Positions 39,792 to 57,693 of a stretch of 64,000 nucleotides of DNA are shown in pieces. A model generated the notes under the pieces. That model was not told the origin of the DNA, did not search any database, and saw only the letters and a program-made list of their open reading frames with translations. The position numbers were made by a program, and so were the translations under genes. This stretch comes from Cystobacter ferrugineus. GTDB taxonomy: Bacteria; Myxococcota; Myxococcia; Myxococcales; Myxococcaceae. The DNA lies in contig NZ_MPIN01000008.1 in the NCBI RefSeq assembly GCF_001887355.1, positions 237,935-301,934 of the forward strand. Reading direction: 5' to 3'. The first letter of the stretch is position 1. The number at the start of each line of letters is the position of its first letter.

Positions 39792-42700
39792 TTATCTTCC
39801 AATCGCGTTGATGTATCGAGCAATCTGCTTGTCCATCTTCATGGCGAACCTTACGACATCCGCTTGCGTCGCGTGCGGATTTTGTCTTGAAAAGGCATTC
39901 CACTGAGGCGTCACGATCTTCTGATGCACATCGCGTGGCAGGGCGTACAGATTCGACAGAGCGTGCTTGTCGCCTCGGAAGAGGCCATTCCGGAAATACA
40001 TTTGAGGAATCCGGTGATGTATATCCATCATCCCCTTGCCCACGAACTTATTGAACTTTGGGTATGCCTTGATGAAGTCGCGCACATAGCATGAGATCAG
40101 GCCCCAGGGATCTACCCAGCCAGTCGGGTCTGGGACGTAGTTCCAGGGCTCCAGACCGCCAGCTGATCCCATCGGATCCCTGCTGGTGTACTGCCTCAAA
40201 TCGGGATCGTAGTACCGAAAACGGTTGTAGTAGAGTCCCGTCTCAACGTCCTCGTACTGCCCAGGAAAGCGGAAAGGCGGAGCGTTGGCGACACCGGAAG
40301 TCTCCCGGAGGCGTCCAAACCCGTGGACATACCCCTCCCACACCACCTCTCCGCCAAAGCTCACCAGGGCATGGGGGGTGTCAAGATGGTCGCATTCGAC
40401 GAGATACACCTCGCCCTTTTCTATTTGCAGGAGCGGCTCGAAGCCATTCGGACGAAAGAAGTATTCGATTTCCTCGTCCTTGCCCGCTCGACAGGAAGTC
40501 GGACCGTCCTGCTGCTGGCAATGCCGGCGCTCTCCCAGCAGCACCTCCTCATCCCATAGGAAGTCGACCCGGTATGAACGGCCTTCCGCCTCGGTAACGA
40601 GCTTCTCGACCCTGCGCCCCAGGGGATCGTATTTGAAGTCCACGATTGACTCCATCCCCTCGGGTTTTCGCGGTATTCGAGAACCAGCCGAGCCTCGACG
40701 GGTTCCCACTGCACGGACGAGTTGGCTCAACGAATTATACGTGTATTCCCACCGTTCCCCCATGCCCTGCTTCTCGATGAGGTTTCCATCCTCATCGTAC
40801 TTCAGACGGAAGCCCTCCACGAACGTGTCTCGAACTCCCGCTCCCTCCGATGTTTTCGGAATGCCTGGTACGTTTCCCGCGCCATCGTACTGATAGAGCT
40901 CGAGTACACGATCCGGGAACTGCGTCGACAGCAGTCGGCCATCCACGTCACGCTGGTAGTGGATCTTGCCGAATTGCTCATCCCAAACGGACAGGAGTTG
41001 TCCAGAAATACCGTATGTGTATTGGCGGGAGAGCACCATGCGACCACGCACCAGGGTCTGGCTGTGTTGTAGAACTCCCTCCGGTGAGTATTCACGCTCG
41101 CTGGCAATGTCCCTGACCAGACTGCGTTTCGACTCACGCCCTTGCTTGTCATACTCCATCTTCAGCAATGTACCGCGCGGTCCATCCACACGGGACAGGC
41201 GGCCTTCGGCGTCATGCGCCAGACTGATCAGTGACCCGAAGGGGGACTGGCGGGAGATCCGGTTACCCACCGCATCGTAGGTACTCCGGACCACCGAGCC
41301 GTTGCAGGATTCCTCGAGGATCTGCCCGGTCTGGTCATACTTCCAGGTCACATCGGCGGCGTTGTTCCTCGCGCGCACGAGCCGGCCCAGTGCATCATAC
41401 TCGAAGTGCTCGCTCGATCCATCAGCGAGGATCCGCTGACGGATCCTTCCCGCGATGTCCCAATCAAACAGGATCCGCTGGCCACGTCCATTGATCTGGG
41501 CGATCAAGCGATTGGAAACATCATACTCATACTGGAGCCGACACCCATCAAAGGTCTGCTCGGTGCAGATCCTGCCATGAATGTCTCGGACGAATCGCCA
41601 TTCTTGTCCCAGGGCATTCGTGATCCGGGTCGGTTCTAGTTCCAGGTCGTATTCAAAGCACTGAAGCGCCCCGCTGGGAGCCCGGATGCTTGTCAGAACC
41701 CCCCGGGGCCCATAGGTATATTCCTGGGTCCGACCCTGCGGGTCCGTGGCACTGAGCACACTCCCTTCCGGGTCATACGTGAACCGGGACACCCGTTGTT
41801 GGGGGGCAATCACTTCAAGGAGATTCCCCTGGGCATCCCATCGCAACCATGTGTCCCCCCCGTGCACATCCGTCCGTTTTACCTGACGGCCCAGCGCGTC
41901 GTACAGGTAGCGTATTCCAACCCCCGTACGATCCACGAACTCGAGCAGATTTCCTTTCCCATCCCACTCCAGTTCCGCGATCTGCCCCTGCGGATCAACG
42001 ACCCGCTTGAGCAACCCGCGGCCATCCACTTCGTATTTCCAACAATGGCCCAGTGGGTCTACCGTCGAGGTCAGATTTCGGCGCTCATCGTAGGTCTGTG
42101 TCCACACCTGTCCCAAGGGGTCGATGATCTGGGTGACATTGCCCACATCGTCACGGCGCAGCGTGGTGGTCGCCCCCGCCGGGTTGGTCTCAGCCACCAG
42201 CCGTCCGTGCATATCATAGACATAAGAGGTCATCCCCCCGTTGGCATCCACCTCCATGAGCTTCCTGCCCTCCTCATCCCAGAGGAAACGAAGCTCGCCG
42301 CCAGAAGGCCTCACCTCTCTTGTCACCAGCCCCAGACTGTTCCACTCATAGACGGTGCTCGCGTCCCTGGAGTCCGTTACCTTCGTCTGCTGAAGATTTG
42401 TATCATATTGCAGCCTTCGCTCGTAGATCCGTCCATCGCCCCATGTGCGCAGGCACCGCGCATCCAGATCATCCCGATCGTACTCGAAATAGAAAGAGAA
42501 CCCTGTCCGGTCGGTCTCCTGAACGAGCAGGTGGTGACGGTAATCAAAGGTCGAGGCATGCCCCAGGGCATCGCGAACTTCGCTCAGATCCCCCTGCGGG
42601 CCATAACGATAACTGACCAGACAATGCGCTGTCCCAGAATCCGTGGATGGGGAGAGGGTTATCTCCAGGATGCGCCCTTCGGGATCGTGGCGGATGGAGA

Positions 42701-45700
42701 GCCGCCGTCCAGCACTGTCGCGGATGCCCGTGAGCCGGCCGTGCTCCCGATGAAAATCGATACCATTTCCGTTGCTGTCTTCGATACGAGCCAGGGGCAG
42801 GGTCAGAGAGGCATCCGGCTCGAGCCTGGCCACCTGCTCCCCCAGCGTGTCCTGACGGGGGAACAGGTAGCGGAGGCCCGATCGACTCTCCAACAGGTAG
42901 GCATGCTCCGTGACGTGCAGCGTGAGCTGCTCTTGTCCTCGCCGTGTCGGACGTCCGGGCCGTGGCGGTTCGAAGGACGTATAACGGCCATCCTCCAACC
43001 TTGCGACGACGACATCCCGACCCACCAGCAGGGCCAGATCCAAGCTGTGATGCCACCCATGCCCGAGTGGCCCCTGGTATGCCGAGCAACTATACCATAC
43101 CCGCGTCCACTTCAGCGGGAGTGGTCCTGGCAGTTCAAAATCCGTTCCCTCGGTGAAGACCTTGCCCGTGGCCACATCCACGGGGTGACCCACGCAGGTG
43201 GAGTACAGCCTGCTGACCAGATTCCAGACGCGCGAACTCGTCAGACCACTCAACAGGCGGCTCGCACCGGCGCGGAGTTGCCCGGCCAAACTGCTCATCC
43301 ATTGAGAATTCAAGAGACTTCTCAACGGAGCGCCCATGAACTTGCTCAGCCCGGAAAAAAGACCCTTGAGCAGCTGGCCTCCCACGAGCGCGATGAGCGC
43401 CGAGGCGGCGGCGCAAGACCAGCAGATATTGCTCCAGCCATTCGCGATCCCTTGGTGGATGACGTCGACAGCGAACACTGCGGCCGCCCCCAGTGCCGGA
43501 TTGACCGCGAAGGCGGCACCAACCACAGCGCCTTCCAAAGCGCCCACCCAGACGTTCTCTCCCTTCGCAGCGGCGATGACCCCTCCGATGACCGCTCCGA
43601 CGACCGCCCCCCCGAGGATGTGCCAGAAGCCACCCAGCGGGTCCGCCTTGTTCCAGGGATCGTTGGCACAGTAGCTGTAATGATTCGCGTCGGGCTTGAA
43701 CCAGTGGGGATCTCGCGTGAGATAGGATTTGAGGTACGGGCTATAGTAACGCCCGAAATTGTAGTACAATCCGCTTTCGGTGTCTTCGTACTGCCCCTGA
43801 AGCCGCCAGGGCTGGCGCACGCGGGCGATGGTCTCGTGGGCCTGACCGAAAGAGTCATAATGCGCCTGCCAGACGACGACTCCCTGTTCATCGAACACCC
43901 GGATGGGGCTACCACGCGCATCATGTTGCAACCAATAGGAGTGCCCCGCTTCCTCGAAGGAAACAGGAACCGTGCCTCCCGGCAGGTAGAAATAGGTTCT
44001 CCGTACCGCGACGGCGTCTGGTCCACTGACACACTCCTCCCAAAGCAACTGGTGCCCTGACCAGCAATAGCGCCACGTCCGGAGCCCATCCGTTTTGGAG
44101 ATGCGCCTGCCCAGGGCGTCGTAGGAGAATTGGAGGCGCAGGCCCGCTACCTGTAATTCTCGCAACAGGCTATCAGCGGAATAGCGGCACTCCAGCTCGC
44201 CTTGAGTGCCAGGCAACCGCAGCATGTTGCCCAATCGATCATATTCGATGGACACCCCTCCGCGCGCGAGCGGCTCGTCCATCAATCCGATGCGGAGTTC
44301 CACGTCATCGTCCCGAATGAGGTTGCCCTTGAGGTCGTAGAGGAAGGCTCGGGTCCTCAACGGCCCTCGGTCACCCACATCTTCATCGAGAAGGAGTCGG
44401 CCCTCCGGATCGTAGTGGAACCGGCGGGCCACGGACGGTTGCTGTTGCGCGGATGCGCCCTCATCCCGCATCGAGATCAGACGTTCGCACACATCGTACG
44501 CATAATGCTGCTCGCTCAGGAGGTGTCCCTGCGGATCCTGGACGCGTGCCTGCGTAAGCCGGCCGCCACGCTCATGCCGCTGGTCCTCTACGAGCCTGTT
44601 GCCGTAGACCAACCTCTGGACACTGCCCTCCGGTGTGTATTCGACACCGTACGCACGACTGCTTCCATCCCGAGCCTGACGAAGCCGGCCTACCTCGTCA
44701 TATTCATACTCGAAACGAAGCCCGCCCGAAGTGGCCATTCGTGTGAGATTTCCTGCCTCATCGTAGCCATAGGTGATGCGTTCATCACCCGAAACCTCCT
44801 CGATGAGCCGTCCCAGGGAGTCGTAGCGCTTACTCAGCGAGGTCTGCTCATCCTGAGCGGAGAGGACACGCCCGGAAGGATCGAACCGCAATTGGACCGA
44901 ACGCCCATCGGGCCAGTGAATGGCTCGCGGCGCCCCTCGTTCATCCAGTTCGCGCTGAACGCTCCGTCCGTCGCGCAGCGTTAAGGTGGAGGAATGACTG
45001 TCGGCATTGTGCGTGAAGGACTCCCGGGAGCCGTCGGGATGGCAGATGGCGCTCAAGCGGCCGTCGGCATCGCACTCATAGCGGCGCTGACGGCCCAATG
45101 GATCGATGACCGCGCGTAGAGTCCCCTTTGGAGTATAGTCGTAGCGTGTGGCGGCTCCGGCGCGGTCAATCACCTCGCGCGCCCAGGGTCCATCGCCATA
45201 GTCGAGGCGGGTAACGGTGGCATCCGGGTGCTGCACGCGGCGAAGGCGTCCCAACGAGTCGTTGGTGAACTGGTAATCCATCAGCCCAGGTCGTGTGAGC
45301 GCCGCCAAATGGCCGTTCTCGTCGTAGCGCATCTCCATGCGCTCGCCACCAGGGTACACGAGTGCGGCGAGTCGGCCCTGGACATCGGGCTCCAGTTCAC
45401 ACACCGCACCGGTGGCGAGAAGGAGGCGGCGGGGCAGTCCATCGGAGCCGAAGGAAAGCCGTGTCCGAAAGCCTCGCGCATCCGTGCACACGAGATCCCT
45501 GGTGGACGCATCCCGTTTAACGTTGTAGCCTTTCTCCTTGTAGTGAGACAGCAACATCTCCGGCACATGACCATGGGTCACTGGCCGGAGCGCAGCCAGA
45601 TGAGCTTCCCGGATGGCGAACCGCTCTCCAACGCTGCGGCGGGACGGGACCCCTACCGGAGCGTTGTCCCTGGCCGTCAAACACAACCGATGCGGCGGGA

Positions 45701-46157
45701 CGGAAGAACCAACCAGGATGAAGCTCTCCAGGGGACCAAAGAACTCGAGGGCCTCTTCCTCGCTGCAACTCTCGAGGAAGGGCCGCAGCAAGCGAGGGTC
45801 ATAGAACCGGAAGAGCCACTCGTCCCCCTGGGGTGAGCTGACAGTCAAGAACCTGCGCAAATGGGTTTCGACGGCTAGAAACCCAGCCTGACAGGTCAGG
45901 AAGATGCCCCAGGGCGCATTCCACAGTTCTTGCTCGATCCAAGCGAGCAGGGCGAGATCGACGCGTGCGAGGTAGGGGGCCTTGTCACCGAAGGTCTCGG
46001 CCGCCTGACCGCGGTACAGAACAGAGCCCTGTCCCTCACCAAGCCCAAGGATTCTGGCTGGCACACTCGGTGAGCCGCAGGCGTCGAGAACCGCATAGAG
46101 GCAACCGGCGGAGGCCGCTTGCCGTAGCGCCTCCTCCTTCAAAGGAAGAATCCGCAT
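39792..46157 (-). CDS. Double-module Rhs toxin with N-terminal DUF4123 and HNH-like C-terminal tip
   Basis: 2121-residue polymorphic toxin. Residues 1-about 130 are a DUF4123 domain (LYAVLDACGSP, SVLYRGQAA, PYLARVDL, WGIFLTCQAGFLAVETHLRRFL, FRFYDPRLLRPFL), normally a separate adaptor that loads T6SS effectors. YD repeats follow to a first Rhs core end near 797-822 (LYYNFGRYYSPYLKSYLTRDP). Residues 845-950 are Gly/Ala-rich and hydrophobic. A second start module (CVGHPVDVATGKVF, near 981) opens more YD repeats ending in a second core (LYYNRFRYYDPDLRQYTSRDP, near 1974) and DPTGWVDPWGL. The last 100 residues carry DIHHRIPQMYF and LSNLYALPRDVHQKI, an HNH-like nuclease. Upstream is PAAR, downstream the immunity gene. 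Confidence 0.92.
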   Translation of the reverse strand: MRILPLKEEALRQAASAGCLYAVLDACGSPSVPARILGLGEGQGSVLYRGQAAETFGDKAPYLARVDLALLAWIEQELWNAPWGIFLTCQAGFLAVETHLRRFLTVSSPQGDEWLFRFYDPRLLRPFLESCSEEEALEFFGPLESFILVGSSVPPHRLCLTARDNAPVGVPSRRSVGERFAIREAHLAALRPVTHGHVPEMLLSHYKEKGYNVKRDASTRDLVCTDARGFRTRLSFGSDGLPRRLLLATGAVCELEPDVQGRLAALVYPGGERMEMRYDENGHLAALTRPGLMDYQFTNDSLGRLRRVQHPDATVTRLDYGDGPWAREVIDRAGAATRYDYTPKGTLRAVIDPLGRQRRYECDADGRLSAICHPDGSRESFTHNADSHSSTLTLRDGRSVQRELDERGAPRAIHWPDGRSVQLRFDPSGRVLSAQDEQTSLSKRYDSLGRLIEEVSGDERITYGYDEAGNLTRMATSGGLRFEYEYDEVGRLRQARDGSSRAYGVEYTPEGSVQRLVYGNRLVEDQRHERGGRLTQARVQDPQGHLLSEQHYAYDVCERLISMRDEGASAQQQPSVARRFHYDPEGRLLLDEDVGDRGPLRTRAFLYDLKGNLIRDDDVELRIGLMDEPLARGGVSIEYDRLGNMLRLPGTQGELECRYSADSLLRELQVAGLRLQFSYDALGRRISKTDGLRTWRYCWSGHQLLWEECVSGPDAVAVRRTYFYLPGGTVPVSFEEAGHSYWLQHDARGSPIRVFDEQGVVVWQAHYDSFGQAHETIARVRQPWRLQGQYEDTESGLYYNFGRYYSPYLKSYLTRDPHWFKPDANHYSYCANDPWNKADPLGGFWHILGGAVVGAVIGGVIAAAKGENVWVGALEGAVVGAAFAVNPALGAAAVFAVDVIHQGIANGWSNICWSCAAASALIALVGGQLLKGLFSGLSKFMGAPLRSLLNSQWMSSLAGQLRAGASRLLSGLTSSRVWNLVSRLYSTCVGHPVDVATGKVFTEGTDFELPGPLPLKWTRVWYSCSAYQGPLGHGWHHSLDLALLVGRDVVVARLEDGRYTSFEPPRPGRPTRRGQEQLTLHVTEHAYLLESRSGLRYLFPRQDTLGEQVARLEPDASLTLPLARIEDSNGNGIDFHREHGRLTGIRDSAGRRLSIRHDPEGRILEITLSPSTDSGTAHCLVSYRYGPQGDLSEVRDALGHASTFDYRHHLLVQETDRTGFSFYFEYDRDDLDARCLRTWGDGRIYERRLQYDTNLQQTKVTDSRDASTVYEWNSLGLVTREVRPSGGELRFLWDEEGRKLMEVDANGGMTSYVYDMHGRLVAETNPAGATTTLRRDDVGNVTQIIDPLGQVWTQTYDERRNLTSTVDPLGHCWKYEVDGRGLLKRVVDPQGQIAELEWDGKGNLLEFVDRTGVGIRYLYDALGRQVKRTDVHGGDTWLRWDAQGNLLEVIAPQQRVSRFTYDPEGSVLSATDPQGRTQEYTYGPRGVLTSIRAPSGALQCFEYDLELEPTRITNALGQEWRFVRDIHGRICTEQTFDGCRLQYEYDVSNRLIAQINGRGQRILFDWDIAGRIRQRILADGSSEHFEYDALGRLVRARNNAADVTWKYDQTGQILEESCNGSVVRSTYDAVGNRISRQSPFGSLISLAHDAEGRLSRVDGPRGTLLKMEYDKQGRESKRSLVRDIASEREYSPEGVLQHSQTLVRGRMVLSRQYTYGISGQLLSVWDEQFGKIHYQRDVDGRLLSTQFPDRVLELYQYDGAGNVPGIPKTSEGAGVRDTFVEGFRLKYDEDGNLIEKQGMGERWEYTYNSLSQLVRAVGTRRGSAGSRIPRKPEGMESIVDFKYDPLGRRVEKLVTEAEGRSYRVDFLWDEEVLLGERRHCQQQDGPTSCRAGKDEEIEYFFRPNGFEPLLQIEKGEVYLVECDHLDTPHALVSFGGEVVWEGYVHGFGRLRETSGVANAPPFRFPGQYEDVETGLYYNRFRYYDPDLRQYTSRDPMGSAGGLEPWNYVPDPTGWVDPWGLISCYVRDFIKAYPKFNKFVGKGMMDIHHRIPQMYFRNGLFRGDKHALSNLYALPRDVHQKIVTPQWNAFSRQNPHATQADVVRFAMKMDKQIARYINAIGR

Positions 46158-46231: not shown

Positions 46232-46594
46232 TCACTGACTTTCCATGCTCACGAAAGGCGCGGCGCCATCATGCGCGGCGCTCATCGCACTGTATCCTGA
46301 GTCGCCGATGATGACAGTCGCCGCGCCCGAAACAATCTGTCCGCCGTGGCAAAGCGTATCCCCCAGACGAGCAGCCTTCTGTCCCCCGATTATCACGGTG
46401 GGCGAGCCTGAACCTATCTTGGCTTTCGCCCCCACGCCCGTACACAACGATTCATCACCGATTCTGCTCGCGAGGCGGCCCTCGATGAGCACGGTGTTCT
46501 CACCCGTGACAATAGGCCCACCCACATGGGGGGTAGGCCCTGGATCGCTCATCGGACAGGTCTGCGTATCCCCAACACGTGCAGCAGGTGGCAT
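46232..46594 (-). CDS. PAAR-domain protein (T6SS spike tip)
   Basis: 120-residue PAAR protein that sharpens the VgrG spike and carries effectors. MPPAARVGDTQTCP, GPIVTGENTVLIEGRLASRIGD, GSPTVIIGGQKAARLGDTLCHGG and GAATVIIG give the repeated PAAR strands with zinc-binding Cys/His. ATG 46594 has AGGGGAG upstream. It lies 74 bases before the Rhs start, same strand, so the two are cotranscribed; with the DUF4123 domain inside Rhs this gives spike, adaptor and cargo in two genes. Confidence 0.92.
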   Translation of the reverse strand: MPPAARVGDTQTCPMSDPGPTPHVGGPIVTGENTVLIEGRLASRIGDESLCTGVGAKAKIGSGSPTVIIGGQKAARLGDTLCHGGQIVSGAATVIIGDSGYSAMSAAHDGAAPFVSMESQ

Positions 46595-46622
46595 CTGCTC
46601 CCCTTTCGGGCAAGGACGGCCA

Positions 46623-47290
46623 TCATGTGTAAAGGGTAACACTCATTGTGTGGGTTCTACTCATCGAGGCCTCCAGACTAGGAGAAAGTGGACACTTCAA
46701 AACTTGAGCAGGCGCCCCAGGCTCGCGTCGAGCTTGGCTGCGCATGAGGCCCAGGAGGCTGTCGATCCCCGGGTCACTCACCGACAGCCTGCGCGCCAGT
46801 TGCACGCGCAGCTCGGCCATGAGCGCGTCGCACCCGTGCACCCCCCAGCGTGACGCGGTGGAGCGGTGCACCCCATGCCTCCGCACCAGCTCGTCGATGG
46901 ACTAGCCCACCAGGAAGTGCTGGCGCAGCAGCACGCTCAGCCCGGGCTCGAGCGACGTGATGGCCGCCTCCAGCGCGGCATTGAAGTCGGCGCGGTAGTG
47001 GTGCTTGAGGAAGGCCAGCTCGGGGTGAGGGCCCGCCTTGACGGGCAGAGGGGAGTCGGACGAGGACGCCTCCTGGACGAGGACCTCGTGCCGCGGGTCC
47101 CGGAGGTTGAGCGCGGCGCGCACCGCGGCCACGCGCACCCAACTGGAAAACGAGCCCCGGCCCGAATAGCTCTCGATGCGGGGCCGCTCCCCCGCGGACG
47201 CCACCAGCAGTCGCTCGTGGAGGACGCCGGCGAGGAGGTGCCTCCGGCCCTGGGACTGCTCGGCGAGCGCCTGACGGGCACGGGCGTCCG
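46623..47290 (-). pseudogene. Sigma-70-family factor (myxobacterial type), interrupted by an amber codon
   Basis: The minus strand reads RIESYSGRGSFSSWVRVAAVRAALNL (region 2-like) and PHPELAFLKHHYRADFNAALEAAITSLEPGLSVLLRQHFLVG, then TAG at 46902-46904, then SIDELVRRHGVHRSTASRW, the region 4 recognition helix, in the same frame. Removing the one stop gives a continuous protein of the lineage-specific sigma type that myxobacteria pair with Ser/Thr kinases. The N-terminal part upstream of about 47290 is missing. The stop lies inside region 4, so the product would lack its promoter-reading helix. Confidence 0.7.
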
Positions 47291-49594: not shown

Positions 49595-49752
49595 GCGTTC
49601 TCCGCGTTGGTGGGAAGTTGGGTGACCAACACCGTACGAAACACCCTCCTCCTGATTTCCCGCCAGTCCCCCCCTGAAAATCTTCCCGCCTTCCGGTCGG
49701 AGGACGGCCGCATCGCCTGGGCCTGGCATGCGACCCACCATCCGCATGGCGA

Positions 49753-49794
49753 GCACACAACATGCGGGAGAGCCACGTAACCGGATCAAGCCCA
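49753..49794 (+). repeat. 42-base dispersed repeat, copy 2
   Basis: 37 of 42 bases match the reverse complement of 18951-18992. It lies between the S9 peptidase start and the carrier-thioesterase end, next to the GAGAGCCACGTAACCGGATC block that resembles a worn tRNA T-arm. Confidence 0.6.
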
Positions 49795-49842
49795 TGCTGC
49801 CTTTGGAGACCCTGTGGCCCCTGTAGACCTCACCTCGGCCGC

Positions 49843-50940
49843 TCAGGACACGCCCGACTCCGCGATGGCGGCGCGGATCTCGTTCGCCACCACCTCCACG
49901 TGCGGCTCGGTCAAGAGCGACACATGGTTGCCCGGAACCACGCGCAGGCGCAGCGGCTGGGTCGAGACGTCCTCCCAGCCCTCGGTGAGCGTCTCGCAGA
50001 ACTTGCTGTCATGACCGCGCAGGAAGGTGAGCGGACCCTGGAAGCGCTCGGCTGGCTTGTAGTCGCCATGGCTGACCGCGCGGAACACAGCCAGGACGCG
50101 CTCGATGCGCTCGTCGGGCTCGTCCGGCGGATACACCCCGTGACTCCGGGCGAGGTGCATGAACCGCTCGATGCGCTGCCGCGGCTCGAGGGCGCGCATG
50201 TCCTCGCTCCTCAGCCCGAGTTCCTGACCGAACCAGTACCGGAAGTTCGCCGCGATGATGGCGTAGAACTCGGGGAGGTCGTCCAGGAAGGTCTCGTTCG
50301 GGATGCGGAGGCGGAAGAACTCGGGCGACCAGGCGTCGCACGCGACGAGCATGGCCACCTGTTCCCCACGGCGCCGCAGTTGCAGCGCCATCTCCAGCGC
50401 GACCATGCTGCCAGCGCAGTGGCCTCCCAGGAGGTAGGGGCCGTGCGGCTGCACGGTCCGCATGGACTCGATGTGGTCGGCCGCCATGTCCTCGATGCGA
50501 GTGAACGGGGGACGCTCTCCACAGAGTCCCCGGCTCTGAAGGCCGTACAAGGGCTGATCCGGCCCCATCCGGCGCGCGAGCGCGTGATAGTTGAACATGG
50601 AGCCCTCTCCTCCCGGCAGGAAGAAGAGGGGGCGCTTCGCGCCGTGCGGCTGGAGTGGAACGAGGGACTCCTCGTTGAGCTTCCTCGAGCGCGCGCGCAG
50701 GCGGCAACCGATGCGCTCGATCGTCGGCCCCTCGAGGAACGCCTCCAGCGTGAGCGGGGCATCGAACCGATGGGAGATCACGGCCCGGACGGTCTCCGCC
50801 GTGCTCCGGTCGCCCCCGAGCGCGAAGAAGTCATCCTTCGCTCCGAAGTCGTTCCGGCGCAGGACGCCTGACCAGATCTGCCAGAGCCGCAGCTCGTAGA
50901 AATCCCGGGGGGCCACGGAAGGGAAGTGCATGACGTTCAT
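49843..50940 (-). CDS. Carrier-like domain plus Cys-type thioesterase, copy 1
   Basis: 365 residues. Residues about 10-80 resemble a peptidyl/acyl carrier domain (LRLWQIWSGVLRRNDFGAKDDFFALGGDRSTAETVRAVI), but the usual G-G-x-S is G-G-D-R, with Arg at the phosphopantetheine site and Ser one place later. Residues about 95-360 are an NRPS/PKS-type thioesterase: LFFLPGGEGSMFNYHALARRMG, then GGHCAGSMVALEMAL near 172 with Cys as nucleophile, and VPGNHVSLLTEPHV near 335 with the His. Start overlaps the upstream gene (ATGA). Last gene of the operon. About 70 percent identical in pattern to the protein at 54597. Confidence 0.85.
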   Translation of the reverse strand: MNVMHFPSVAPRDFYELRLWQIWSGVLRRNDFGAKDDFFALGGDRSTAETVRAVISHRFDAPLTLEAFLEGPTIERIGCRLRARSRKLNEESLVPLQPHGAKRPLFFLPGGEGSMFNYHALARRMGPDQPLYGLQSRGLCGERPPFTRIEDMAADHIESMRTVQPHGPYLLGGHCAGSMVALEMALQLRRRGEQVAMLVACDAWSPEFFRLRIPNETFLDDLPEFYAIIAANFRYWFGQELGLRSEDMRALEPRQRIERFMHLARSHGVYPPDEPDERIERVLAVFRAVSHGDYKPAERFQGPLTFLRGHDSKFCETLTEGWEDVSTQPLRLRVVPGNHVSLLTEPHVEVVANEIRAAIAESGVS

Positions 50941-52904
50941 CTCTCGCGTGAAACCAGACGCATGGCCTCGGAGCGAGGATCACGCGGCAGAGGAAGGGGA
51001 TGTGACTGGACCGAGAGTTCCTGGTCGCGCACCTGGCGCTTAACCTGGATGGGCAGCACGCCGGAGACCGCTTCCCGCGCGACCACGCTCGCGATGAGGT
51101 GCGCGACGCGCGACCAGTCACAGTACCCGTGGATCGCCGCCCGCTGACGCAGCTGGATGGTGGGATTCACCGCCCGGCGCAGCGTGCTCAGCGCCCGCTC
51201 CAGCTCGGCACCGAGTGTGTCGACGAGGATTGGCAGCGGGGACTCCAGGTGCGTGGCGCATTGGGTGGCATACAGCCGCTCCAGTTGGAACGCATAGACC
51301 GCGCGCTCCATGGCCACCTCCGCGGTGACCGCGTCCACGGCGCCCTCCGGCCCCACCAGGGGATCCGGCGACATGAGCAGCGGCGGGATGCCGTTCGCCA
51401 ACGCGGCGCCGATGCTGCTCAGGCCGGGACGGCAGACAAAGGTCGTCCGAGGCTTGGCCCCCAAGGCCCGGAGGAACGTGCTCCAGTGCTCGTCGATCCA
51501 TCCGAGCAGCGTCACGTTCGTGAGCCGCGAGCGCTCGAGCCCGAGTGCCAGCCACGCGCGATCCTCCGCGTTCCCGCCCGCGAACAAGAAGTGGGCCTCC
51601 TCCATCTCCGTCGCCAGCGCCAGCATCGCGCGCCAGTGCCGGCGGCTGCACGTGGAGTAGCCATTACCCTGAGACACGAGGATGACGCCGCGCGGATCCT
51701 CGGGGGTGAAGAGGTGCTGGAGCGCGGGTGAGTGCTGGGCCAGGACGGCGCCGGCCCGCGCCGCGGCCTCTTCTGGGGAGAGCGCACTGGCCTGGCCCAG
51801 CGGCGGAATGACCACATAGGGGCGCGTGCCCGATTCCAAGGCGCTCCCGTCGCGCCAGTTGATGGCCTGATACCAGATGGTGCCGCGCTCCGGCACGCTG
51901 TCCATGAGCTCCCGGCTCGCGGCCTCGAAGTCGACCGAGGGGTTGCGCCGCGGATCGATGCCGCACGTGCGCAGCACGTCCTCGAGCTCGCGCCGCGAAT
52001 GGATCGCCGGCGCGGATGCCTCCAGGAGCTCGGCCATCCCCGGCGCCATCGGCGTCGGCCGGGCGGTCGGGCATGCCAGCCGCCGGAGCCACGCGAACTC
52101 CTCGAACGCATAGCGCACGGCATGCAGGGGGACTTCCTTCTGCTGCGCATGCTCGGCGAGCTGGTGCAGGATCCAGGTCTCCGGCCGGCAATCGTTCACG
52201 ATGGCGGTCGCGCTCGCGCTGACCCGGGCGAGTTCGCGATTGTCCGCGATCCACAAGAGGGCCGCCTCGCGGTTCAGGAGCGCCGGACGCGAGGGGTTGG
52301 CGACGTCGGCGGGCGAGATCGTCGCCGACTCCGCATCACTGTAATGGAGCGGAACCACCTGGAGCCCCGTCGCCGTGCCCCCAGCCTTGCGACGCGCGTA
52401 CGCCGCGTCCTCCTGCCGCCGGATCGCGGCGGTGAAGGGTTGCGGATCCGGGAGGCTGGCGAGGGCGCCGTGCACCGCCGGAACCCAGCCCGTCGTGTGC
52501 CCGAAGGCCTGCGCGACGTACATCACGCCCGGGGAAGCCGACACCCGGTGGGCCTTCACACGGAACCGACCCTCGCACCGGGGATCCGGCTCCGTGACAT
52601 AGAGCGGGACCCGGGCGTCCCGAATGGACGCGCCGTCGCGAGGAACGAGCATCGCCCGCCTCGCCTCGCGATCCGAGATCAGGAGGCCGTCCGCGCCAGC
52701 GGCCAGGGCGAACGCCGCCGCACCCTCGGCCGGCGGCGTGTTCTCGATCGACAGCGGCTGTCCCGCGACGGTGATCCGGGGCGGCTCGCCGGACGCGAGG
52801 TACATCACCGCGACGCGTCCGAACGAGAGCTCGACGGCATCACCGCGGCTCACCCAGGTCGGCTCATCCCGCGGGGGGAACACGAACCTCGATTCGGCCC
52901 TCAC
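50937..52904 (-). CDS. Unrecognised 655-residue protein, possibly glycosyltransferase-like
   Basis: No family can be named. The start is GTG at 52904, overlapping the decarboxylase stop (GTGA); without it the frame runs on as nonsense through the upstream gene. The N-terminal 150 residues are beta-rich (VELSFGRVAVMYLASGEPPRITVAGQPL). The centre may hold a first Rossmann-like lobe (YVAQAFGHTTGWVP; RVSASATAIVNDCRPETW). The C-terminal part (VILVSQGNGYSTCSRRHWRAMLALATEM, FLFAGGNAEDRAWL, VTLLGWIDEHWSTFLRALG, FVCRPGLSSIGAALANGIPPLLMS) looks like the nucleotide-sugar lobe of a GT-B glycosyltransferase. Coupled on both sides, so it belongs to the same pathway as the decarboxylase and thioesterase. 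Confidence 0.7.
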   Translation of the reverse strand: MRAESRFVFPPRDEPTWVSRGDAVELSFGRVAVMYLASGEPPRITVAGQPLSIENTPPAEGAAAFALAAGADGLLISDREARRAMLVPRDGASIRDARVPLYVTEPDPRCEGRFRVKAHRVSASPGVMYVAQAFGHTTGWVPAVHGALASLPDPQPFTAAIRRQEDAAYARRKAGGTATGLQVVPLHYSDAESATISPADVANPSRPALLNREAALLWIADNRELARVSASATAIVNDCRPETWILHQLAEHAQQKEVPLHAVRYAFEEFAWLRRLACPTARPTPMAPGMAELLEASAPAIHSRRELEDVLRTCGIDPRRNPSVDFEAASRELMDSVPERGTIWYQAINWRDGSALESGTRPYVVIPPLGQASALSPEEAAARAGAVLAQHSPALQHLFTPEDPRGVILVSQGNGYSTCSRRHWRAMLALATEMEEAHFLFAGGNAEDRAWLALGLERSRLTNVTLLGWIDEHWSTFLRALGAKPRTTFVCRPGLSSIGAALANGIPPLLMSPDPLVGPEGAVDAVTAEVAMERAVYAFQLERLYATQCATHLESPLPILVDTLGAELERALSTLRRAVNPTIQLRQRAAIHGYCDWSRVAHLIASVVAREAVSGVLPIQVKRQVRDQELSVQSHPLPLPRDPRSEAMRLVSRER

Positions 52905-54229
52905 CGGGAAACCTCGCTCGCGTAGGAATCCCGGTCGACCATGTCCTCGTAGGTCTCCGCGCGACGGACGAGCGTCTCGCGGCCCTGCTCCAGGAGCACG
53001 ATGCCCGGCTGTGGAAAACAGAAGGAGTTGGAGAAGGAGACCAGATAGGCCCCCGCGTCCATGACCGCGAGCGTGTCTCCGAGCTGGAGCCGGGGAAGTT
53101 CGATCGCGGTGCGCAGGCGGTCCATCGGGCTGCAGGTGGGGCCGTCGAGGGTGTACGTCTCGCTCGGCGAGTCGCCCCATCGCTCGACATGGAAGATCTC
53201 GTGATACTCGCGGTGCAGGATGTGGGCGATGCTCTCGCCAGCATCCAGGATCGCGTGCGCGGGCACCGCCCCGGCCTCGTTGAGGCTGTTGACCCGGCAC
53301 AGCAGCATCTGGGTATTTCCGGTCAGCGCCCGTCCAGGCTCCAGCAGGAGGCGGGGCATGGGACGGCCGACGCGACGGAAGTGGTCCTCGACCTGGCCGA
53401 CCAGCAGCGCGAGATAGTGTTCGATCGACAGCTTGCGGCGGACCTGCTCGTCGAGCGGGAGCGTCGAGGCGTCGAGGGGCAGCACCGTCGGGACCGCCAG
53501 GCTCCCGCCGAGGTCGAGCAACTCCACGGCGAGGCCAAGCCGGGCGTGGAGCGTGTCACAGAACTCCAGCACCTCGCGAACGAAGCCCTCCAGCGTCTCG
53601 GCGTCCTCGATGGCCACGCCCCGGTGCGCGTGCAACCCGACGACCCTCAGCGAGGAATGCGAGAGCGCCTCCTCGTAGGCCGCCAGCGCCTGCCCTCCGG
53701 CGATGGGGACACCGAACTTGCCCGACCAACTATCGGAGGTGGCCACGCGCAGGCCCACCGTGGGCCGCTTGCCGAGCTGCTCAGCCGCTTGGGCGACGAG
53801 CGCGATCTCCTCGCGATGATTCAGGTTGGTGAGCAGGAGATCGTTCTGGACGATCGTGCGCACCGCGCGCGGCGTCTTGCCCGGACCATTGTAGATGATC
53901 CGTCCGGGCGCGACGCCGAGCCGCAGGGCGAGCCAGAGCTCGTACGGGGAGACGACCTCGGCGCCCACGCCGAGCCCCAACAATCTCTGGAGCACGGCCG
54001 GAACGGGATTGGTCTTGTAGGAATAGAAGACCTCGACTCCTGGCGGCACCTGCTGGAAGCGCCGGACGTTCTCGTCGAGCCGGTCCGCGTCGACGACGAA
54101 GAGCGGGCTGCCCCAGCGGTCCGCCAGGCCCGCGAGCGACGTGCCCCGCAGACACAATCCGCCTTCGGCGCGGGTCAGACCCCATCTCTTGGGATGAAGG
54201 GATTGCGAAGCACCGACCGCATGAGTCAT
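52901..54229 (-). CDS. PLP-dependent decarboxylase, alanine-racemase fold (DAP/ornithine decarboxylase type)
   Basis: 442 residues. VEVFYSYKTNPVPAVLQRL near 65 holds the PLP Lys, LHAHRG is the position of the family H-x-G block, VELLDLGGSLAVP is the glycine loop for the phosphate, LLLEPGRALTGN the EPGR motif, TLDGPTCSPMD the substrate GPxCxxxD motif with its Cys, and VMDAGAYLVSFSNSFC the closing DAGAY. All key residues are present. Relatives include diaminopimelate decarboxylase and BtrK, which decarboxylates a carrier-bound amino acid in butirosin synthesis; next to carrier-thioesterases the second kind of role is attractive but unproven. ATG 54229 was chosen as first Met before conserved sequence; upstream GTGs are possible. 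Confidence 0.88.
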   Translation of the reverse strand: MTHAVGASQSLHPKRWGLTRAEGGLCLRGTSLAGLADRWGSPLFVVDADRLDENVRRFQQVPPGVEVFYSYKTNPVPAVLQRLLGLGVGAEVVSPYELWLALRLGVAPGRIIYNGPGKTPRAVRTIVQNDLLLTNLNHREEIALVAQAAEQLGKRPTVGLRVATSDSWSGKFGVPIAGGQALAAYEEALSHSSLRVVGLHAHRGVAIEDAETLEGFVREVLEFCDTLHARLGLAVELLDLGGSLAVPTVLPLDASTLPLDEQVRRKLSIEHYLALLVGQVEDHFRRVGRPMPRLLLEPGRALTGNTQMLLCRVNSLNEAGAVPAHAILDAGESIAHILHREYHEIFHVERWGDSPSETYTLDGPTCSPMDRLRTAIELPRLQLGDTLAVMDAGAYLVSFSNSFCFPQPGIVLLEQGRETLVRRAETYEDMVDRDSYASEVSR

Positions 54230-54596
54230 GCGTCCTTCGGAAACAACGACGGAAGATGAGGACACGGTCAACCCCTCGGGGCGAGCAGGGTGAAGAGAAA
54301 AGGGAGCGCGGAGGTGAAACGCGGAGACAAAACAGGCTCCTTCGGGTATAGGGAGGATGGGTTCACTCAGGGTCACTGAGAATTGTTTCCAGCGTGCGGT
54401 TCTGGAGATCAGAGAACGACAGAGGACCCGCCTGGGATTGTGCAGGGGGCCTTCCCGCTCCGACTCAGCACATGGGTTGTGGCCCGCCGCCAGGACAGCA
54501 AGGCCCGTACCAGTTTCAAGTGCTAGAAGCTCCTCGGACGCACCCGCCACGAGGCCAGGACTGACACGCCAATGACGCGTCACTGACGTGACAGAC
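54230..54596. other. Gap between the second thioesterase and the decarboxylase
   Basis: 367 bases without a gene. On the minus strand it may act as leader of the three-gene block. CAGCAAGGCCCGT at 54499 is shared with the hairpin at 55700, suggesting this gap and the region upstream of copy 2 derive from the same ancestral leader, duplicated with the thioesterase gene. Confidence 0.45.
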
Positions 54597-55685
54597 TCAG
54601 GACACGCCCGCCTCCGCGATGGCGGCGCGGATCTCATTCGCCACCGCTTCCACGTGTGGCTCGGTCAGCAGAGACACATGGTTGCCCGGCACCCGGCGCA
54701 GACGCAGGGGCTGGGTCGAGACGTCCTCCCAGCCCTCGGTGAGCGTCTCGCAGAACTTGCTGTCGACGGCACGAAGGAAGGTGATCGGCCCCTGGAAGCG
54801 CTCCGCGGGCTCGTAGCCCGAGTAGCAATAGGAGCGAAAGAGGGCCAGGACGCGTTCGATGCGCTCGTCGGGCTCGTCGGGCGCATAGGCTCCGTGCGCT
54901 CTGGCCAGCCGCATGAAGTGCGCGATTCGCTGCCGTGGTTCGAGGGCGCGCATCTCGTCGCTCTCGAGTTGCAGGTCCGCATCGAACCAGTACCGGAAGC
55001 CCGCCGCGATGATTGAGTAGAACTCGACGAGGTCGTCCAGGAAGGTCTCGTTCGGCATGCGGAGGCGAATGAGCGCGGGCGACCAGGCGTCGCACACGGC
55101 GAGCACGGCCACCTGTTCTCCGCGGCGTTGCAGTTGCAGCGCCATCTCCAGCGCGACCATGCCGCCAGAGCAGTGGCCCCCCAGGAGGTAGGGGCCGCGC
55201 GGCTGCACGGTCCGCATGGACTCGATGTGGTCGGCCGCCATGTCCTCGACACGACTGAACGGGGGACGCTCTCCATAGAGCCCCCGGGCCTGTAGCCCGT
55301 AGACGGGCTGATCCGGCGCCATCCGGCGCGCGAGCGCATAGGAGTTGAGGACGGTTCCCTCGCCACCGGGCAGGTAGAAGAAGGGACGCTTCGCGCCGTG
55401 CGGCTGGAGCGCAACGACGGGCTCCTCGTTGAGTCGCCGCGAGCGAGCACGGAGGTGACAGCCGAGACGCTCGATCGTCGGCGCCTCGAGGAAGGTCTCC
55501 ATCGGGAGGGACATGTCGAATCGAGCCCCGATCTCGGTGCGAACGGCCTCCGCCGTGGCTCGGTTGCCCCCGAGCGCGAAGAAGTCGTCCTTCATCCCGA
55601 AGTCGTCCCGGCGCAGGTGGTCCGACCAGAGCTGCCAGAGCCGCAGCTCGTAGACGTCTCGGGGAATTGCTGGCGTTTGGCTCAT
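54597..55685 (-). CDS. Carrier-like domain plus Cys-type thioesterase, copy 2
   Basis: 362 residues, a close paralogue of the protein at 49843. The carrier-like part (LRLWQLWSDHLRRDDFGMKDDFFALGGNRATAEAVRTEIG) has G-G-N-R-A-T: no Ser at or next to the phosphopantetheine position, so it cannot be loaded in the ordinary way. The thioesterase has FYLPGGEGTVLNSYALARRM, LLGGHCSGGMVALEMAL near 172 (Cys nucleophile) and VPGNHVSLLTEPHV (His). The ATG at 55685 was chosen; a longer frame up to 55904 codes for unlikely sequence. Followed by a 367-base gap and then the decarboxylase on the same strand. Confidence 0.85.
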   Translation of the reverse strand: MSQTPAIPRDVYELRLWQLWSDHLRRDDFGMKDDFFALGGNRATAEAVRTEIGARFDMSLPMETFLEAPTIERLGCHLRARSRRLNEEPVVALQPHGAKRPFFYLPGGEGTVLNSYALARRMAPDQPVYGLQARGLYGERPPFSRVEDMAADHIESMRTVQPRGPYLLGGHCSGGMVALEMALQLQRRGEQVAVLAVCDAWSPALIRLRMPNETFLDDLVEFYSIIAAGFRYWFDADLQLESDEMRALEPRQRIAHFMRLARAHGAYAPDEPDERIERVLALFRSYCYSGYEPAERFQGPITFLRAVDSKFCETLTEGWEDVSTQPLRLRRVPGNHVSLLTEPHVEAVANEIRAAIAEAGVS

Positions 55686-55699
55686 GATCTGTCTCATGC

Positions 55700-55724
55700 G
55701 GCACGGGCCAGCAAGGCCCGTGCC
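55700..55724. promoter_or_regulatory. Perfect 10-bp hairpin just upstream of thioesterase copy 2
   Basis: GGCACGGGCC at 55700 and its exact reverse complement at 55715 flank AGCAA. It stands 14 bases before the ATG of the leftward gene, within the leader and over the usual ribosome-site region. It could be an operator or a translation-limiting hairpin. Confidence 0.5.
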
Positions 55725-55968
55725 CGCGGCGAGCAGCAGGACCGCCAGGATCTTCAAGTCAGTCGGAAAGCCCGGGCACGCGATGGCCCGGAAGCTCCGC
55801 ATGGACTGCTCGATGGCCTGCTCCCGGTCGTGCGCCGGGCCCTGCCCGAGCAGGGGCAGCAGCTCGGGCTTGACGTGTGTACCTTGCCGGGCATGCAGGG
55901 ACACGATCCGACGAGTCGTCCGACCCCCTTCTCGGCCCCCCCTTCCTCACGCCTCGCGCCGGCTACCC

Positions 55969-56604
55969 TCACCAGGCTGATTCCCGAATGACACGGCAGA
56001 AGTTGCCGCGAATGAACAGCGGCTCCTTGTCCGCGATCACGTCCGCCTTGACGTTGCCGAAGGTGGTCCGCGGCTTGTGCTTGATGCCATCGTAGAACGC
56101 CTGAATGATGTCCTCCTTGAAGCGCTCGGTCCGAGGATGGGCGGCGACCACCGCCTCGCGCTCGTCGTCGGGGTACTCGGCGTAGGTCAGGCCCAGCACG
56201 TCCATCTCGACGCCGGCGGTGACCAGCGCGACCACCGGATGCATGTGCTCCGGGATACCCGGCGTCGTGTGAAGCGCGATCGCGGCCCACACCACGTCGA
56301 GGTCGGACGGAGAGATACCGCGACTCTTCAGGAAGTCGCGAGCGGCGTTGGCGCCGTCCACCTCGAAGCGCTCGTTCGGGCTGGAGTACGCAGGGGTCAG
56401 TCCCATGTCGTGGAACATCGCGCCCGCGTACAGAAGCTCCGGATCGAACTTCAGGCCCCGCCGCACACCGGCCAACGCGCCGAAATAGTAGACGCGGCTC
56501 GAGTGGTGGAAGAGCAGCGGCGACTCGGTGTCGCGGACAAGCTCGGTGATGTCTCGGACGAGCTGGGTATCGGGAACACGGACGCTTTCGAGTAGAGAGG
56601 TCAT
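55969..56604 (-). CDS. HD-domain phosphohydrolase/hydratase-like protein
   Basis: 211-residue HD-superfamily protein. LLFHHSSRVYYFGALAG (first His), LLYAGAMFHDMGLTPAY near 63 (the HD pair) and IALHTTPGIPEHMHPVVALVTAGVEMDVLG (downstream His/Asp) are the metal ligands in order. The pattern is close to HD proteins related to cyanamide hydratase, but nothing proves the substrate. ATG 56604 gives the natural start. Divergent from a GlxA-type regulator with 111 bases between, so likely under its control. The 283 bases to the next gene on the left hold only the 55700 hairpin. Confidence 0.83.
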   Translation of the reverse strand: MTSLLESVRVPDTQLVRDITELVRDTESPLLFHHSSRVYYFGALAGVRRGLKFDPELLYAGAMFHDMGLTPAYSSPNERFEVDGANAARDFLKSRGISPSDLDVVWAAIALHTTPGIPEHMHPVVALVTAGVEMDVLGLTYAEYPDDEREAVVAAHPRTERFKEDIIQAFYDGIKHKPRTTFGNVKADVIADKEPLFIRGNFCRVIRESAW

Positions 56605-56715
56605 CGGGATTCTCCTGGTTTGGCAGTCGATATCCAGGCAGACCACCGTGGCGTCCGATATCATCGTGATACGGCGAATCCGGACATCTTCCGGCAGCCG
56701 CGGACACCGACTGAA

Positions 56716-57693
56716 ATGCCCCGAGAAGTCGCCCTCGTCGCCATGCCCAACGTGCAGTTGCTGGACGTCTCGGGACCGCTCGACGTCTTCGCCGAGGCGA
56801 ACGCCCAGGCGAGGGCTCCCGCCTATCGTCTTCGCGTCCTCAGCGCGCGTCCGGGCCCCGTTCGAAGCTCCTCCGGCGTGCGCCTCATGCATGACGGCGT
56901 CGTGACCGAGACGGCCCCCGAGGGGATCGACACGCTTCTGGTCGCGGGTTCACCCCATGCGCCGGATGAGGTGCCCGATCCCCGCGTCGTCCGATGGCTT
57001 CGCGCCGCGGCCGCCGCCTCGCGGCGCTACGGCTCGGTCTGTACGGGGGCGTTCGTGCTGGCGCAGGCGGGGCTTCTCGACGGGAAGCGGGTCACGACCC
57101 ACTGGGCGGTCGCCGGCCGCCTGGTGGAACAATTCCCAACCATTACCGTCGATGCCGACGCCATTCACGTGCGGGACGGAAAGGTGTGGACGGCGGCGGG
57201 CGTCACGGCGGGCATGGACCTGTCCCTGGCCCTCGTCGAAAAAGACCTCGGACGGGAGACGGCGCGAAAGGTGGCGAGCCAGCTCGTGATGTTCTTCAAG
57301 CGTCCCGGCGGACAGACGCAGTTCAGCAGCAAAGGGGTGGCGGTTCCCGTGGGGCGATCAGCCCTCCAAGAGGTCCAGCGGTACGTCGCCGCTCACCCGG
57401 CCGAGGACCATCGCGTCGAACTCCTGGCCGATCGCATGGGCCTGAGCGCGAGGCACTTCGCGCGCCTCTTTCGCAAGGAAGTCGGTCTCACTCCGGCCGA
57501 ATGGGTGGAACAGATCCGAATCGCCGCCGCCCGGACGATGCTGGAGTCCGGGCAGTGGGCACCCAAGGAGGTGGCGGGAAAGTGCGGCTTCCACGACGTC
57601 GACACGCTCCGGCGCGCGTTCCTACGCCGAGTGGGCATCTCGCCATCTGAGTACCGCAAGCACTATGCGGGCACCGCGCGCCAGGCGCCGTGA
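56716..57693 (+). CDS. GlxA-family transcriptional regulator (DJ-1/PfpI plus AraC HTH)
   Basis: 325 residues. The N-terminal domain is DJ-1/PfpI-like: VALVAMPNVQLLDVSGPLDVFAEAN and SVCTGAFVLAQAGLLDGKRVTTHWA near 108 with the conserved Cys elbow. The C-terminal 100 residues are an AraC helix-turn-helix pair (LADRMGLSARHFARLFRKEVGLTPAEWVEQIRI; VAGKCGFHDVDTLRRAFLRRVGISPSEYRKHY). Such regulators usually activate a divergent gene in response to a small nitrogen compound; the divergent gene here is the HD protein. ATG 56716 begins directly at the conserved MPREVALVAMPN. Confidence 0.92.
   Translation: MPREVALVAMPNVQLLDVSGPLDVFAEANAQARAPAYRLRVLSARPGPVRSSSGVRLMHDGVVTETAPEGIDTLLVAGSPHAPDEVPDPRVVRWLRAAAAASRRYGSVCTGAFVLAQAGLLDGKRVTTHWAVAGRLVEQFPTITVDADAIHVRDGKVWTAAGVTAGMDLSLALVEKDLGRETARKVASQLVMFFKRPGGQTQFSSKGVAVPVGRSALQEVQRYVAAHPAEDHRVELLADRMGLSARHFARLFRKEVGLTPAEWVEQIRIAAARTMLESGQWAPKEVAGKCGFHDVDTLRRAFLRRVGISPSEYRKHYAGTARQAP

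Follow-up and report, generated by a model that had tools for sequence, protein, structure and literature searches.

Stand-alone cysteine thioesterases with a carrier-like domain devoid of the phosphopantetheine-attachment serine, and their three-gene cassette in Cystobacter ferrugineus and related genomes

What may a thioesterase gain from a carrier domain lacking the residue by which carriers are loaded? This question is raised by two genes on the reverse strand of a 64,000-nucleotide stretch of the Cystobacter ferrugineus genome (contig NZ_MPIN01000008.1; the whole stretch analysed is referred to below as the window). Their products, TE1 (49843..50940, 365 aa) and TE2 (54597..55685, 362 aa), are 77% identical, and each is a stand-alone protein composed of a pseudo-carrier domain followed by a thioesterase domain with a Cys nucleophile. 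The pseudo-carrier domain spans aa 9-85 in TE1 (50686..50916) and aa 6-82 in TE2 (55440..55670), and the thioesterase domain spans about aa 91-365 (49843..50670) and about aa 91-362 (54597..55415), respectively, all on the same strand. Pfam assigned the two parts to the PP-binding family (PF00550; 29.0 bits in TE1 and 24.0 bits in TE2, cut-off 20.8) and to the type-I Thioesterase family (PF00975; 113.1 and 103.3 bits, cut-off 26.4). The closest solved structure for TE1 was the PCP-TE end of the AB3403 NRPS (4zxh; residues 9-355, E-value of 4.6e-33), and the PCP-TE of EntF was also among its structure-sequence matches. An Rfam scan of positions 49700-57000 gave no match.

The original prediction, according to which both proteins begin with a carrier-like domain bearing Arg at the phosphopantetheine position, was borne out by the Pfam matches and by the codons themselves. 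In TE1 the motif is encoded by ctc ggg ggc gac CGG agc acg (GGD-R-S), where Arg45 is the CGG at 50806-50808 and Ser46 is encoded at 50803-50805; in TE2 it is encoded by ctc ggg ggc aac CGA gcc acg (GGN-R-A), with Arg42 being the CGA at 55560-55562. It had also been claimed that TE2 has no Ser nearby, and indeed the closest ones are residues 21 and 59, with Thr44 being near.

A homolog search in 145 genomes of the order gave 12 places in nine genomes at E ≤ 1e-60, referred to here as the TE family. All 12 members matched both Pfam families (PP-binding at an E-value of up to 0.1). They are encoded by stand-alone genes of 360-366 aa (with the starts chosen here) and do not form the end of a larger, multidomain synthetase; longer starts are possible within their open frames, which measure 373-670 aa, but these frames are still too short for a synthetase module. 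At the Ser position we found Arg in ten members, His in one, Pro in one and Ser in none. In a profile search of 96 genomes of the bacterial family, the 12 members scored 665-758 bits, and the best other protein among the matches listed scored 245 bits. The next 20 matches in this ranking (in frames 587-7710 aa long) all have Ser followed by Leu, and Ser is likewise present in each of 11 lower-ranked matches located in shorter frames (436 to 1174 aa, several of them near contig ends), i.e., in 31/31 of the more distant PCP-TE matches checked when both control sets are pooled. The original prediction had called for a look at the same substitution in other genomes and would have been refuted by normal GGHS in all relatives; this is not what was observed, the 12 close relatives being without Ser and those 31 distant PCP-TEs having it. 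The same genome encodes 62 carrier domains including those of TE1 and TE2, and the other 60, the motifs of which were assigned by hand, have Ser (57), Thr (2) or Trp (1) at this position. Thus, Arg at the Ser position is more than chance and not a sequencing slip. Because the attachment Ser is lost, the domain would not be loaded by a phosphopantetheinyl transferase, and we strongly infer from the sequences that no phosphopantetheine is present on the carrier domain of TE1 or TE2. The absence of Ser from all 12 members supports the earlier statement that these cannot be ordinary loaded carriers.

Unusual carriers were also noticed elsewhere in this genome. A KR-type protein of 648 aa ends in a Ser-less one (GGD-W-R) at its C-terminus (L113:7843-9789; G000:C9:306011-306199), and tandem Thr-for-Ser carriers (LGIDTVKQ, twice) are placed at the end of an 1817-aa protein (L114:4121-9574; G000:C19:68642-69244), which also has ketosynthase and acyltransferase domains and the layout of which is PUFA-synthase-like.

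In the phylogenetic tree the 12 members form one clade (support 99/97) on a long stem, as judged with three outgroup rows only, which are long-branched. As the members are thus united, a single ancestral loss is the simplest reading, and Ser was most simply lost once, before the family spread. Beyond the phylum, a contig scan with short peptide patterns indicated three loci (L033, L034 and L035). L034 encodes a PCP-TE in which the motif is a normal GGDS and the nucleophile is Cys, and L033 is a thioesterase part located at a contig edge; L035 was rejected as a relative, its match being 19 residues long and taken as chance. Among plasmid records, 146 were matched by TE2, all at less than 60% identity, and the best ten of these 146 showed 33-35% identity and were annotated mostly as NRPSs. 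In open-licence papers we recognised no description of this pseudo-carrier thioesterase family, which does not imply its absence from print; the single relevant precedent among them was that of TomB (PMC11186497), discussed below.

Turning to the thioesterase part, its nucleophile is Cys in a GHCxG motif (GHCAGS in TE1). In the family alignment, Cys172, Asp199, Asp308 and His336 (TE2 numbering) are invariant in all 12 members; the candidate catalytic residues of TE1, numbered by adding 3, are Cys175, Asp202 or Asp311, and His339. Asp199 is located 27 residues after Cys, a spacing which we take to be EntF-like, and Asp308 is located 28 residues before His. As the EntF-like and the later position both hold an invariant Asp, both are treated as candidate acids and the role is assigned to neither. 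In ObiF and SulM, the published residue numbers place the acid 30 residues before His (PMC6668435, PMC11298585). The invariance of these residues is consistent with a thioesterase that is probably active. A Cys nucleophile is also present in L034 and in AB3403, and Ser occupies this position in three PCP-TEs of the same genome; on these sequences, the Cys nucleophile is not special to the TE family.

What does the pseudo-carrier domain keep, and what does it change? Leu-Gly-Gly ahead of the Ser position and Ala at +3 are invariant (12/12), and Glu at +4 (Glu46 in TE2) is present in all 12 members vs none of the 60 other carriers of the genome. Over the same 66 pairs, median NG86 omega values of 0.38 (carrier part) and 0.365 (thioesterase part) were obtained. 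These are crude estimates for GC-rich genes and non-independent pairs, and they suggest that the two parts are under selection of about equal strength. A model of TE2 built from four sequences was of middling quality as a whole (pLDDT 65.4, pTM 0.59); in its carrier part four helices are predicted, with block-mean pLDDT of 72-90 over aa 11-80. The comparison of this model with known structures, proposed by the original prediction as a check, bore mainly on the thioesterase part: five PCP-TE entries (4zxh, 3tej, 5ja1, 5ja2 and 8w2d) align from the carrier part on, at rmsd values of 8.8-13.1, and therefore give no separate test of the carrier fold. Together, these data suggest that the pseudo-carrier has retained its sequence signature under selection and probably also its four-helix fold. 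The Glu at +4, the Cys nucleophile and the three-gene cassette presented below go beyond the original prediction.

Between TE2 and TE1, two further genes are placed on the reverse strand. One (52901..54229) encodes a fold-type-III PLP decarboxylase, diaminopimelate-decarboxylase-like (DC), the start of which is uncertain as the open frame extends to 54637. The other (50937..52904) encodes an orphan partner protein of 655 aa (UNK), whose GTG start overlaps the DC stop by four bases; its stop, in turn, shares four bases with the ATG of TE1. All three cassette genes are found together in each of the nine genomes having TE or UNK, and a search of 195 genomes from the phylum located UNK in nine, which are those that have TE. 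The gene order is TE-DC-UNK-TE in the window, TE-DC-UNK in G075, DC-UNK-TE in five genomes (G044, G046, G069, G077 and G059) and DC-UNK-TE-TE in two (G097 and G104). The overlap of the DC stop with the UNK start amounts to four bases in eight of the nine genomes and to one base in the remaining locus, L042. A four-base overlap of the UNK stop with the TE start is possible in seven of the eight genomes with TE after UNK (G044 is without it), and in six of those seven TE was aligned from a later start.

The distribution of the cassette is patchy within genera (e.g., two of the four genomes in the genus of the window). Flanking genes, compared over 20-kb stretches lying unevenly around the cassette, are common only to L041 and L043. 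For an S9 peptidase encoded in a flank in the window, a match of 27% lies close to the cassette of L037, and the ten flanking frames scanned belong to unrelated families or to none. The cassette of G104 has a DDE transposase gene (L039:15462-17084) about 1 kb upstream, which is in line with horizontal movement. The cassette seems to be a compact pathway moving as a unit between related genomes.

Other genes in the neighbourhood are mentioned here for completeness. An HD-domain protein (55969-56892), which resembles the cyanamide hydratase family weakly and below the cut-off, adjoins the cassette in the window, and no match to it was found in the eight other cassette loci. Reading by eye also indicated a 2121-aa RHS/YD-repeat protein (39792-46157) with an HNH-like C-terminal tail and, adjoining it, a PAAR-like protein (46232-46642).

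With regard to the two partners, DC scored 224.2 bits against the LysA model TIGR01048, below its cut-off of 297.9, and the genome holds another lysA above it (497.9 bits); by these scores, the cassette decarboxylase is distinct from the housekeeping LysA. UNK, scanned with its upstream extension, gave no Pfam, NCBIfam or PDB-sequence match at the thresholds used. Over its nine members, only chance-level Pfam matches were obtained at E-values of up to 10 (the best being 0.037), a profile search of PDB sequences up to the same E-value returned no match, and neither did a search of 72,556 plasmid records at E-values of up to 1. A GT-B (MurG-like) fold, suggested by one sequence stretch, was rejected: hhalign against E. 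coli MurG gave a probability of 1.5%, and the Pfam and PDB-sequence profile searches lent this fold no support either. A single-sequence AlphaFold model of UNK had a pLDDT of 39.3 and was not usable.

How, then, could a carrier fold that is not loaded serve a thioesterase? Since the loss of Ser is common to the whole family found and this family travels with two partner genes, the pseudo-carrier is probably a docking or structural part and not a carrier. We consider that there is about an even chance that TE1 and TE2 are NRPS-derived, trans-acting Cys thioesterases, the carrier domain of which was turned into a non-loaded docking or adaptor domain, and that they belong to a mobile cassette. 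Judging by similarity and the tree, they would come from the C-terminal PCP-TE end of an NRPS and would now be encoded by a free-standing gene. The PCP part has lost its phosphopantetheine Ser while retaining its signature, and would most likely act as a fixed docking or adaptor domain bringing the thioesterase to its partner. This partner may be a true acyl carrier encoded elsewhere in the genome or may be the two cassette partners; no carrier is encoded within the cassette. The acyl group of an incoming thioester would be taken over by the Cys of GxCxG and transferred to water or to an amine; speculatively, this amine could be what the adjacent PLP decarboxylase produces.

As a candidate partner, the stand-alone carrier L093, the sole one examined in this way, was searched for in 26 chosen genomes, nine of them with the cassette. 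It was present in two of these nine (G000 and, weakly, at 7e-9, G097) and in two of the 17 others (G073 and G074), and therefore does not co-occur with the cassette. A broader proposal, which we regard as rather unlikely, is that the family represents a new class of off-loading enzymes, in which a free-standing Cys thioesterase uses a permanently unloaded carrier fold as a receptor; either a carrier in trans or CoA would be selected by it as donor of the acyl group, and DC would supply the amine, so that, together with DC and a protein of unknown fold, a small mobile pathway would operate outside any NRPS.

The main rival of the docking role is that the domain is a structural relic, which would only stabilise or cap the thioesterase and recruit nothing, while the thioesterase would act alone on a soluble acyl-CoA or ester. 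We view this as possible, if clearly the less probable reading. A large share of the invariant residues (LGG, FF, P) is what a PCP fold typically has, the substituting residue varies (R, H, P), and the one carrier tested does not track the cassette. However, the domain is under selection similar to that of the thioesterase, and the invariant Glu46 is new on the helix which normally bears Ser; even so, maintenance of the fold could by itself account for the residues that are retained.

Another explanation, improbable in our opinion, assumes that the domain docks on its own thioesterase, where the residue at the Ser position would sit at the mouth of the pantetheine tunnel, block the cis route and favour an incoming phosphopantetheine or CoA arm. 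The presence of Arg in ten members and of His in one would fit such an active-site gate, and in the SulM PCP-TE complex pantetheine reaches the thioesterase by a tunnel (PMC11298585), at whose mouth the Ser position would be expected. Pro in one member speaks against it, the TE2 model gives no reliable domain arrangement at its pTM, and, as the substituting residue varies, an Arg-specific mechanism is unsupported; since His and Pro occur, none of the readings requires Arg as such.

Loading at another residue, i.e., Ser46 in TE1 and a nearby Thr or Ser in the others, appears very unlikely. Hydroxyl residues do occur there: at +1 the 12 members have A, S, D, G, G, A, A, T, A, A, A and A, and at +2 they have T, T, T, T, T, R, K, R, S, R, S and G (Thr in five, Ser in two). 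Nevertheless, no hydroxyl position is common to the family, and the usual hydrophobic residue at +1 is gone (59 of the 60 other carriers of the genome have a hydrophobic residue or Ala there). The suggestion that TE1 may use its shifted Ser is not supported by this comparison, since Ser at +1 is unique to TE1 among the 12 members, the other 11 having A, D, G or T. Finally, a dead pseudogene pair or a sequencing error, for which the missing Ser alone would speak, can practically be set aside given 12 copies in nine genomes with no inner stops, invariant catalytic residues and omega of about 0.37.

A missing attachment Ser is easily dismissed as a sign of a broken carrier. Because its loss is common to the whole family found and the domain appears to be maintained by selection, TE1, TE2 and their relatives offer a natural way of testing whether thioesterases can use a carrier fold as an adaptor and nothing else, which has been demonstrated for the condensation domain of TomB. 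The cassette also draws attention to UNK as a 655-aa orphan whose function may be approached via its two enzyme partners.

The docking role is favoured by analogy with its nearest precedent, the BN domain of TomB (tomaymycin NRPS), which is PCP-like in its fold, carries RCEHPA where the Ser motif would be and is essential for recruitment of the donor PCP (PMC11186497). Accordingly, the part of the original prediction naming docking domains has gained a precedent, while the role itself would still be a matter of interpretation. The likeness consists in a PCP-like four-helix domain without the attachment Ser ahead of a catalytic domain, which describes TE1 and TE2 as well (the fold being assigned by family match and a middling model). 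The BN domain precedes a condensation domain and has the whole motif replaced, whereas the domain of TE1 and TE2 precedes a thioesterase and keeps LGG; BN has been demonstrated to bind a donor PCP. Among PDB sequences, the TE2 carrier part matched the TomA PCP (8qpy) at an E-value of 0.051, and the BN entries 8QSX, 8QNF and 8RZ6 were not listed at E-values of up to 1, a result that presupposes their presence in the database searched. TomB is thus an analogy, as the catalytic partner and the replacement sequence are different and no sequence link was found.

The C-terminal PCP-TE didomains of AB3403 (4zxh), EntF (3tej) and SulM (8w2d) share the domain order of TE1 and TE2, but they are ends of large synthetases and have Ser (GGHSL in 4zxh), whereas TE1 and TE2 stand alone and are without it. 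Within the active site, TE1 and TE2 have Asp at both the presumed EntF-like and the later position, whereas the acid of ObiF and SulM is placed on a later strand or loop. These two GxCxG thioesterases resemble TE1 and TE2 in having the Cys nucleophile, His and Asp (PMC6668435, PMC11298585), a likeness which implies no lactone or lactam chemistry. As for the decarboxylase of the cassette, it aligns over its full length with members of the diaminopimelate decarboxylase/N-citrylornithine decarboxylase family (2p3e, 1twi and 7kh2).
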